NCBI RefSeq assembly: GCF_000820845.2 | Contig: NZ_CBXV010000004.1 | Span: 62,001-126,000, forward strand | Direction of reading: 5' to 3' | Length of the DNA stretch: 64,000 nucleotides | Source of the DNA: Pyrinomonas methylaliphatogenes | GTDB lineage: Bacteria; Acidobacteriota; Blastocatellia; Pyrinomonadales; Pyrinomonadaceae | Part shown: positions 23,236-46,865 of the stretch, one piece after another | How the letters are laid out: each line of letters begins with the position of its first letter | Numbering within the stretch: position 1 is the first letter of the stretch | Notes under the pieces: model-generated | What the model saw: only the letters and a program-made list of their open reading frames with translations | What the model was told of the DNA's origin: nothing | Database searches by the model: none | Position numbers and translations under genes: made by a program

Positions 23236-24399
23236 ATGACCGTCGCTTTATGGCAGCGCGCCGATGGGGGCGCTCTCTTCTACGACGTCTGCATTATCGG
23301 CGCTGGCATCACCGGCGTGAGCCTCGCTTGGTGGCTGCGGCGCCGCAGCCCGACTTTGCGCATCGCGCTGATAGAGGCGCGGACGCTCGGGGCGGGGGCT
23401 TCGGGGCGAAACGCCGGAATGGTTCTGGCCGGGCTGGCCGATCACTACGATCGGATGATTGAGCTTTACGGGCGCGAGCGAGCGCAATCTATCTGGTTTG
23501 CGACGCTGATGCATCAACGCTGGTTATGTGAATTCGTCGCGGAGACGGGCACCGATGTCGAATTGGAAAAATGTGGGAGTTGGCGCGTGGCGTTCGCGCC
23601 GGATGAGCGCGAGCATCTGGAGAGATCCTTCGTCTTACTTCGCGAGGATGGCTTTGAAGCTGAGTTCTCATCGCGCGATCCGCTCTCCATTGGATTCCAT
23701 GGCGCGCTCGGGATAAGGGGCGACATGGGGATCCATCCGCTCAAGCTCGTGCGCGCTCTGTGGCAGGCTTCCGGCGCGGAACTTTTTGAAAACTGCGAGG
23801 CGGAGCGGATCGATCCCGAGGCGAATTCGGTCCGCATACGTTCGCGTTGCGCGGAGTTCATCGCTTCACGTGTCTTCATCGCGCTCAACGCCTATGCTCC
23901 TTTCTTCCATCCCCATTTTCGCCCCCTCGTCGCTCCGCAGCGTGGGCAGATCCTTGTGACGGAGCCCCTTCGGCGATTTCTGGATCGTCTCGTCTACGCG
24001 CATTATGGCTACATCTATTTCCGGCAATTACGCGATGGGCGTCTGCTGCTCGGCGGCTTTCGTCATCTCTTTGCAGGGCAAGAGCAAACGTCTGTCGATG
24101 AGGTGACGCCCGAGGTGCAAGGGGCGTTGGAGAGTTTCCTGCGCGAGAAGTTGGCGGTCGAGGCGCGCATCGAAGCCCGTTGGGCAGGCGCGATGGGGTT
24201 CTCGCCGGATGGTTTGCCGATCATCGGCGTCGGTCCAGAGTCCGACCGCGTCATCTATGCGCTCGGTTTTACTGGTCACGGTTTCGGGCTGGCTTTGGAG
24301 GTGGCTCGCCGTGCCGTCCTTTTGAGCGAGACGGGGGAGGCGGATCATCTCTTCGGGAGCGAGCGGTTCGGCGCGCGCGTGGACCAGGGCCGCGCTTAG
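23236..24399 (+). CDS. FAD-dependent oxidoreductase (DAO/glycine oxidase-like family)
   Basis: A 387-residue flavoenzyme of the D-amino-acid oxidase superfamily. A Rossmann FAD motif GAGITG lies near residue 20, preceded by DVCII and followed by the acidic strand end LIEARTLGAGASGRN. The middle has the family Pro/Gln element (APQRGQILVTE), and the C-terminal FAD block is WAGAMGFSPDGLPIIG plus GFTGHGFGLA. This arrangement fits oxidases of secondary or primary amines such as glycine, sarcosine or gamma-glutamylputrescine; substrate unknown. ATG 23236 is used; a GTG two codons earlier is possible. Divergent from the HD-GYP gene. Confidence 0.88.
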   Translation: MTVALWQRADGGALFYDVCIIGAGITGVSLAWWLRRRSPTLRIALIEARTLGAGASGRNAGMVLAGLADHYDRMIELYGRERAQSIWFATLMHQRWLCEFVAETGTDVELEKCGSWRVAFAPDEREHLERSFVLLREDGFEAEFSSRDPLSIGFHGALGIRGDMGIHPLKLVRALWQASGAELFENCEAERIDPEANSVRIRSRCAEFIASRVFIALNAYAPFFHPHFRPLVAPQRGQILVTEPLRRFLDRLVYAHYGYIYFRQLRDGRLLLGGFRHLFAGQEQTSVDEVTPEVQGALESFLREKLAVEARIEARWAGAMGFSPDGLPIIGVGPESDRVIYALGFTGHGFGLALEVARRAVLLSETGEADHLFGSERFGARVDQGRA

Positions 24400-24824
24400 G
24401 GGGAAAGAAAATCGTTCGGAAAGCGCGTTCGGGGCTTGACGAACAGCGAAAAATCGTGTATTCCCCGCATCTTGTGTTACACTTCGCCTGCGGGAGATCT
24501 CCTTGCAGGTCGTAGCACAAGCTTCGCTCGCTCCGCCGGGACGTGAAGTTCCAAGCCTCGCTCTGGCTTTCAAACAGGAGCGTGCGAGCGCGGAGTGTGC
24601 GACCTGTCAAAAAGGCAGGTTCAACAGTGGTTCGTCGTGCGGCGGACCACTCGCTTCAGTCTGGGCTTCGCTCTGGCGCTGGGCGCGATATGGGCGCGAG
24701 CGAACGCTCTGGTCGGAAAACCCTTCGGGTTGTTGACGGGCTCGCTGTTACGCGCCGCAGGAGTCCGTGCACGACTCGAATAACTACTTCAAACCCTGAA
24801 TCAAGGGCGACAGGAGGAAACTAG
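24400..24824 (+). other. 425 bp region without a firm gene; possible leader or small RNA
   Basis: The gap between the oxidoreductase and the Asn-rich lipoprotein. A promoter-like TTGACG at 24436-24441 is followed after 17 bp by TATTCC. Downstream lie many hairpins: ACCTG (24602-24606) with CAGGT (24616-24620), and TCCGCCG (24532-24538) with CGGCGGA (24640-24646), about 100 nt apart. The first hairpin and its flank resemble a hairpin in the 6S RNA of this window (46800-46816). A small frame with a signal-peptide look also lies here (24637-24783). Three weak readings remain: a long leader of the lipoprotein gene, a structured small RNA, or a decayed small gene. Confidence 0.35.
24637..24783 (+). 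CDS. Possible small secreted peptide (signal-peptide-like ORF)
   Basis: A 48-residue frame starting at GTG 24637: basic start (MRRTTR), hydrophobic core (FSLGFALALGAIWA), a plausible cleavage site (ARANA) and a short tail ending in ARLE. It has no good Shine-Dalgarno site, and the region is rich in hairpins, so it may be non-coding or the remnant of a larger secreted protein. It stops 41 bp before the lipoprotein start. Confidence 0.2.
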   Translation: MRRTTRFSLGFALALGAIWARANALVGKPFGLLTGSLLRAAGVRARLE

Positions 24825-25136
24825 ATGCGACGAACTTTGGCTCTTCTGGCTTTGTTGACGGCTACGGTCGTCTGGGCTGGGTGCCCCGGACCGGAGAACG
24901 CGAACAACGCGAACGCTAATGTTGGGCTGACGAACGCGAACGCTGGCTACACCTATAACGCCAACGTGAGCACTTACAACGCCAACGTGAGCCTCAACGA
25001 GAACCTGGGGATGGGTAACATGAATGTTAACGCGGGCGTCTCTAACCGGAATGCGGGCGCTAATGCCAACGTTGTGAACCGTAACGCTGGCACCACCAAT
25101 CGTAACATGGGAACGAATGCGAACCGCACTCCGTAG
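24825..25136 (+). CDS. Asn-Ala-rich small lipoprotein
   Basis: A 103-residue lipoprotein: signal peptide RRTLALLALLTATVVWAGC with lipobox ending at Cys19, then about 80 residues made largely of Asn, Ala, Val, Gly and Thr in irregular short repeats (NANANVG, YNANVS, NRNAG). There are almost no charged residues, so it is likely a disordered or beta-stacked surface protein. Low-complexity NANAN lipoproteins of this kind are known from Acidobacteriota genomes; function unknown. The ATG is preceded by AGGAGG with good spacing, and a strong terminator follows. A long leader (about 350 nt) may precede it. Confidence 0.8.
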   Translation: MRRTLALLALLTATVVWAGCPGPENANNANANVGLTNANAGYTYNANVSTYNANVSLNENLGMGNMNVNAGVSNRNAGANANVVNRNAGTTNRNMGTNANRTP

Positions 25137-25165
25137 TGCCCGCGCGGAAAGCCGATAAACGAGCG

Positions 25166-25200
25166 AGGCGCGCTTGTGTTATGGCGCGCCTTTCGTTTTT
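25166..25200 (+). terminator. Rho-independent terminator of the Asn-rich lipoprotein gene
   Basis: Stem AGGCGCGC (25166-25173) pairs with GCGCGCCT (25184-25191), followed by TTCGTTTTT. It lies 30 bp after the stop codon, and the stem could serve the convergent gene as well. Confidence 0.85.
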
Positions 25201-46617: not shown

Positions 46618-46645
46618 TTGCAGTCGCTCGCGCTTGTGCTAGTAT
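46618..46645 (+). promoter_or_regulatory. Promoter of 6S RNA
   Basis: TTGCAG (46618-46623) and TAGTAT (46640-46645) with a 16 bp spacer and a TGTGC just upstream of the -10 box. It would start transcription near 46651, exactly at the 6S closing stem. Confidence 0.65.
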
Positions 46646-46649
46646 CTTC

Positions 46650-46865
46650 GACGGCGAAGAGGGCGCACTTCTGCGGGGTGCGTTACCGAATCCAATGATT
46701 GAGCCAACGCCGTTGAAAAGGGAGACCGATGCCGCACGCCAGTGCGCTCCTTCAGTGTTAAGGAAGCGCCAGAGGCTGCGGCTGCGCTAAAGGTCACCCA
46801 CCTGTCTGTTGCAGGTTCAAATCACGGCTTCGGGACGGCCATTGCGGAAGCCCTCTTCGGCCAAA
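46650..46865 (+). ncRNA. ssrS: 6S RNA
   Basis: Global regulator that mimics an open promoter and binds sigma-70 RNA polymerase. The ends pair: GGCGAAGAGGGC (46653-46664) with GCCCTCTTCGGCC (46850-46862). In the 3' half the known 6S hairpin is recognisable: ACCTG (46800-46804) and CAGGT (46812-46816), followed by TCAAATCACGGC, like the CACCTTG-AACCAAGG-GTTCAAG region of E. coli. The purine-rich central bubble sides are present. Size of about 213 nt is normal. It lies directly after zapA, the usual neighbourhood in many phyla. Assignment is from structure and position only. Confidence 0.82.

Follow-up and report, generated by a model that had tools for sequence, protein, structure and literature searches.

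The window analyzed here is a 64,000-nt stretch of the genome of Pyrinomonas methylaliphatogenes, and the region of interest (425 bp, 24400–24824) lies between an upstream gene for a FAD-dependent oxidoreductase (Pfam DAO) and a gene for a small Asn-rich lipoprotein, a protein for which Pfam and NCBIfam gave no family at E ≤ 0.01. The following features were recognized, all on the plus strand:

24435–24464, +, promoter-like block, CTTGAC-N7-(G/A)AAAAATCGTGTATTyC, in which 7/7 aligned genomes share CTTGAC and the 14-letter AAAAATCGTGTATT without change
24474–24483, +, second conserved element, GTGTTACACT, similar to an extended −10 (TGnTACACT), with counterparts at this position in homologues
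24484–24824, +, putative structured 5′ leader of the lipoprotein mRNA (341 nt as cut), proposed from consensus-fold z and substitution pattern
24529–24597, +, 5′ domain with alternative helices 24529–24536/24590–24597 or 24524–24534/24577–24587 (two folds, choice of partner uncertain)
24598–24624, +, stretch of ~25 nt with a 6S-like hairpin (24602–24620) and a TTCAA tail, absent from the same-genus relative G001 (gap of 25)
24628–24649, +, hairpin 24628–24636/24641–24649, probability 0.99 in the consensus of the window and G001; its 3′ arm overlaps CGGCGGA
24667–24704, +, helix 24667–24673/24698–24704 with 24676–24679/24694–24697, consensus probability 0.99
24725–24779, +, helix P6 (24725–24732/24772–24779), with the best cross-genus support of all helices
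24794–24807, +, short hairpin P7 (CCCU/AGGG), probability 0.93, just upstream of the ribosome-binding site
24813–24817, +, Shine-Dalgarno GGAGG, within GGAGGAAA, inside a block conserved in 7/7 genomes
24825–25136, +, Asn-rich lipoprotein gene (103 aa, 25% Asn), with a signal peptide and Cys at residue 20
25165–25192, +, terminator-like hairpin 3′ of the lipoprotein gene

The promoter-like block and the spread of the unit

Read directly, the block contains TTGACG at 24436–24441, followed after 17 nt by TATTCC at 24459–24464. The preliminary description had pointed to this promoter-like TTGACG and its 17-bp spacing; position, spacing, and strong conservation bear it out, but not as a consensus σ70 promoter, since a promoter scan found no such site for the block. 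In homologues, the position of GTGTTACACT is occupied by GTG(T/C)TACA(C/T)T or near variants. Two candidate start regions are possible, near 24471 (after TATTCC) or near 24490 (after TACACT), and the transcript may start at the latter if TACACT serves as the −10.

When the block was used as a search pattern with up to two mismatches, 11 sites were found in 10 of 119 family genomes (the reversed-pattern control gave 0 in every row). This search added three lipoprotein loci, in genomes G028, G015, and G002, each with a long leader; at four other, weaker sites, the sequence read there contained no such lipoprotein gene. A stricter version of the pattern, applied to a collection of genomes from 84,980 species, returned three loci, each of which carries the label Pyrinomonadaceae or Pyrinomonas. 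Three further observations concern promoter-like sequences. A second element, TGTGTTATACTCC or a near variant, lies upstream of the main block in G002 (L044), G011 (L061), G025 (L063), and G036 (L007), which suggests tandem promoters. In the window, the 6S RNA gene is preceded (46627–46660) by GCTTGTGCTAGTATCTTCG, similar to the TCTTGTGTTACACTTCG element of the leader, and both may be extended −10 promoters. Finally, CTTGACAAACGGCGAAAAATCGGTGTATT, on the minus strand of L010 (G106) at 1501–1529, is a close copy of the promoter block.

With the whole region as a DNA query, 4 of 60 genomes were matched, its own included. In an alignment of these four loci, the promoter-like block is conserved, the middle changes fast, and the end, with the ribosome site and the start of the lipoprotein, is again conserved. 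In seven genomes, the promoter block is followed by the leader, then by the ribosome site, and then by the start of the lipoprotein. Two sequence models were used: R1 covers the 3′ end together with the beginning of the lipoprotein, and R2 the 5′ block. At E ≤ 1e-6, they matched 21 and 10 of the 119 family genomes, respectively. In all ten R2-matched genomes, seven of which had supplied the training sequences and three of which lay outside the training (G011, G019, and G025), an R1 match was present at the same locus, downstream and on the same strand, so that the 5′ block precedes the lipoprotein start in 10/10 genomes. Weaker R2 matches in G016, G007, and G013 (E 0.004–0.024) were also at R1 loci, whereas the remaining weak ones, none of them at R1 loci with E ≤ 1e-6, may be due to chance. 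Extended to the class, the R1 search at E ≤ 1e-6 matched 21 of 162 genomes, family members only.

The conserved unit, as judged by comparison of sequences, comprises the promoter block, a leader of 198–456 nt (320–456 nt in 13 of the 14 genomes), a strong Shine-Dalgarno sequence, the Asn-rich lipoprotein gene, and often a terminator, in 14 Pyrinomonadaceae genomes whose loci were extracted for having such a leader upstream of the lipoprotein. The lipoproteins encoded after these 14 leaders have 95–127 residues, 17–40% of them Asn. An equivalent terminator-like hairpin lies 53–59 nt past the stop codon in 7 of the 12 loci for which 200 nt of sequence past the stop was at hand. At E ≤ 1e-60, just 4 of the 119 family genomes have the upstream FAD gene, and the leader-lipoprotein unit is therefore independent of that neighbour. 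In addition, related Asn-rich lipoproteins beginning MRRTLAL or MRRTIAF, with similar ribosome sites, are encoded at L071, L072, and L073 (G021, G077, and G127), where no leader was recognized; by sequence, this gene family appears wider than the leader.

Predicted folding of the leader

The whole region is predicted to be more stable than 100/100 dinucleotide shuffles (z −4.52). Consensus folds were scored against column shuffles, in which dinucleotides are not preserved, and gave z −4.98 for the leaders of the window and G001, −4.18 for those of G036 and G012, and −5.73 for six core leaders, with 0/200 shuffles as low in each case. The pair G013 and G133 reached only −1.68 (11/200 as low). 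As controls, the antisense strand of the window and G001 leader gave z −0.68, seven coding blocks from the same pair ranged from +1.36 to −2.46, and two coding blocks from G036 and G012 gave +0.62 and −2.25. Over 12 leaders, single-sequence z values ran from −0.09 to −4.08, the former belonging to the 198-nt leader of G019. The conserved sense-strand structure is weak in G013/G133 and in G019.

Between the window and G001, substitutions affect 22 of the 156 columns that are paired and 79 of the 154 that are not, a comparison in which conserved columns are biased toward pairs because the fold was derived from the same two sequences. In the hairpin at 24628–24649, one pair is changed on both sides and two on one side, and in the helix at 24667–24704 two pairs are changed on both sides and still pair; the outer part of this helix (24667–24673/24698–24704) is only 0.13–0.35 probable in the window sequence alone. 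The 5′ domain (24529–24597) yields no covariation because it is nearly identical in G001. The alignment of the window and G001 contains gaps whose lengths are not divisible by three, and the leader was therefore judged, by reading, unlikely to be coding sequence. We also considered an anti-Shine-Dalgarno switch, in which UCUCC (24498–24502) would pair with GGAGG. Such pairing occurs in one window and G001 fold and is absent from the fold begun at 24465, and a switch is not claimed since the pairing is fold-dependent and such short complements are common.

Support across genera is greatest for P6. The preliminary description had proposed aligning related genomes to look for covariation, and compensatory changes were indeed found: over five homologous pairs in 13 genomes, 63 of 65 cells are paired, with exchanges of C-G for U-A, G-C for A-U, and U-A for C-G. 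We chose the strands visually, close to a fixed anchor, a procedure biased toward pairing. G019 does not enter the count, since no helix of this sort was recognized in its leader, and P6 is not fully paired in G133 and G016. When the right strands were shuffled, 1 in 10,000 trials paired as well, and 0.5% of permutations did so when the count was limited to the eight distinct forms. P6 ends 37–49 nt upstream of the start codon. Behind it, P7 abuts the Shine-Dalgarno sequence, and in homologues a CCC/GGG hairpin can form at the same position. The mean unpaired probability of the Shine-Dalgarno sequence is 0.24 in the window leader and 0.02–0.51 over 14 leaders, and local pairing may therefore keep translation low. 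In most leaders the value is similar when only the last 60 nt are folded; in these predictions, low accessibility would be mostly local and not clearly an effect of the long leader.

In the six core genomes, a structure of 40 pairs gave 92.9% paired cells (91.1% in shuffles; 2/500 as high) and four pairs changed on both sides (1.1 in shuffles; 3/500 as high). Slid versions of this structure reached at most 46.9% paired, an advantage that arises in part from its derivation from the same six sequences. A long-range helix closes ~430 nt in these genomes. A model of the core 5′ domain, R3, matched only its six training genomes among the 119, once per genome and at this locus only, and a search with it left the window and G001 unmatched. 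Consequently, the central part of the window leader corresponds to the core domain in position, and the same fold is not established for it.

This failure of R3 in Pyrinomonas, together with a middle for which no convincing alignment of Pyrinomonas with the other genera is obtained, is what might be expected of a passive, GC-rich, and fast-evolving spacer in which function is limited to the promoter, P6/P7, and the ribosome site, and G019 manages with 198 nt. The strand-specific consensus fold, set against coding and antisense controls, speaks against such a spacer, as do substitutions that avoid pairs and a length that holds steady in 13/14 genomes, and we regard it as quite unlikely. A separate trans-acting or scaffold RNA, transcribed from this promoter too and released by processing or partial termination with the lipoprotein made by read-through, as in the large ornate bacterial RNAs, would suit the large multi-helix body with its ~430-nt closing helix, the very strong conservation of the promoter, and the terminator-like matches found within the leader in G036 and G011 (2/14 leaders). 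Yet the window leader has no terminator-like site between RNA and gene, the R3 body occurs at no other locus (6/119 genomes), strong 5′-block matches are confined to lipoprotein loci, and the conserved P6 ends close to the start codon; a separate RNA is accordingly improbable. The core-genera closing helix and a possible pseudoknot would also fit a new, large, multi-domain RNA restricted to Pyrinomonadaceae, both leader of the lipoprotein mRNA and a functional RNA itself, e.g., a sensor of envelope signals, which we consider a tentative and rather unlikely proposal.

The hairpin shared with 6S RNA

The preliminary description had been drawn to a hairpin at 24602–24623 by its similarity to one at 46800–46820 in the 6S RNA. 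This similarity is real. The hairpin ACCTGTCAAAAAGGCAGGTTCAA (24602–24624) has its counterpart, ACCTGTCTGTTGCAGGTTCAA, at 46800–46820 within the true 6S RNA of the window (46665–46854, 57.9 bits to RF00013 of Rfam, which served as a positive control). The gapped pattern ACCTGTC-N-GCAGGTTCAA, fixed post hoc when the match had already been seen and built on two non-independent hairpin arms, had two matches in the window and none in 100 shuffles. Exact matches in the whole genome (3,788,560 bases in 16 contigs) numbered two, the leader region and the 6S RNA (reversed-pattern control, 0). In a single-sequence fold, the hairpin (24602–24620) forms with pair probabilities of 0.80–1.0. The longest exact word common to the region and 6S RNA has 10 letters, and 31 of 293 stretches of 425 nt taken at random from the window share a word at least as long.

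A 6S-like RNA that binds RNA polymerase could account for this exact gapped match to the genome's own 6S RNA, the sole other copy in the genome, and for a TTCAA tail likewise identical to part of it. However, 24350–24900 had no match up to E = 5 among all Rfam 15 families, RF00013 included. The same-genus relative provides a further comparison: its orthologous leader has a 25-nt gap at the hairpin position, and an exact copy of the hairpin is present in its 6S gene (91% identity over 220 positions, 63.6 bits to RF00013). The arms TCCGCCG (24532) and CGGCGGA (24640) exist, as had been described, but their enclosing pairing does not stand, with a mutual probability of 0.0; the former lies within or adjoining helices with 24577–24597, and the latter pairs with 24628–24636 in the window and G001 consensus. 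No 6S-type closing stem around a central bubble is thereby predicted, and the leader, which sits before a ribosome site, differs from 6S RNA in this respect too. On these grounds, we reject a 6S-like RNA, once offered as a reading of the region, as hardly credible. Chance or a private insertion best accounts for the match, and the hairpin, from the sequences compared, appears to be a lineage-specific extra outside the conserved part of the leader. A single matching hairpin is insufficient for naming an RNA.

Two observations belong to the RNA scans themselves. The 63.6-bit 6S RNA of G001 (L118) was missed by the faster gathering-mode Rfam scan and recovered by a permissive one. A misplaced RNase P RNA was also considered and rejected, as RNase P lies on another contig (265 bits).

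A probable leader acting on its own mRNA

Covariance searches with models of 6S RNA (RF00013) and acidobacterial RNAs had been proposed for this region, which matches none of them in our Rfam scans. Ten related loci (L040, L043, L044, L041, L042, L002, L063, L061, L064, and L068), scanned against Rfam to E = 1, had no match at or above the gathering score. No Rfam riboswitch was matched in the region or these loci, and no switch conserved across genera was detected. Acido-1 (RF01686) and Acido-Lenti-1 (RF01687), candidate structured RNAs of Acidobacteria that a table in PMC2864571 gives as not cis-regulatory, were likewise revealed by comparative structure in this phylum, and neither was reported in the scans of the window region and ten related loci. 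The large ornate RNAs OLE, ROOL, and GOLLD (PMC12286853) resemble the leader in having hundreds of nucleotides, several helices, and a lineage-restricted occurrence; the leader differs in being tied to one downstream gene and ribosome site and in having no Rfam match. Our literature search found no description of the leader, and nothing on an asparagine-rich lipoprotein in Acidobacteria or a Pyrinomonas riboswitch.

A structured leader of the lipoprotein gene, one of the readings in the preliminary description, is well supported by the conserved unit, the sense-strand fold, and the compensatory changes, and the lineage-specific noncoding RNA proposed alongside it fits as a description of this leader. 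The region is most likely the long folded 5′ UTR of a small Asn-rich lipoprotein mRNA. From its own promoter-like elements, its frequent own terminator, and its survival of neighbour change, we infer a long 5′ UTR that acts in cis, together with transcription from this promoter, a leader joined to the mRNA, and control of stability or translation. On the sequence evidence, 24435–25192 is probably a monocistronic unit whose folded leader sets the stability or translation of the lipoprotein mRNA in cis. The conserved promoter would drive an mRNA with a 5′ leader of ~340 nt here (198–456 nt in relatives), which would fold into a multi-helix RNA with P6 and the small hairpin P7 adjoining the Shine-Dalgarno sequence at its end. 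Acting in cis, the leader may shield the mRNA and limit or time ribosome access to the Shine-Dalgarno sequence, so that it would set the amount of the envelope lipoprotein. The simplest alternative role would be stabilization of the mRNA for this protein.

The ompA leader of Escherichia coli is an example of a long structured 5′ UTR of an abundant envelope protein. The unit described here resembles leaders of that type in its conserved promoter, folded leader, strong ribosome site, and envelope-protein gene, a likeness of arrangement in which no sequence relation is claimed. To our knowledge, few regulatory RNAs have been described in Acidobacteria. Since the leader is kept with its promoter in relatives and matches no RNA family in Rfam, it is a reasonable candidate for a new regulatory RNA. 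Conserved with its promoter before one lipoprotein gene, and present in a cultivated type strain, it offers a concrete target for RNA-seq and reporter work.
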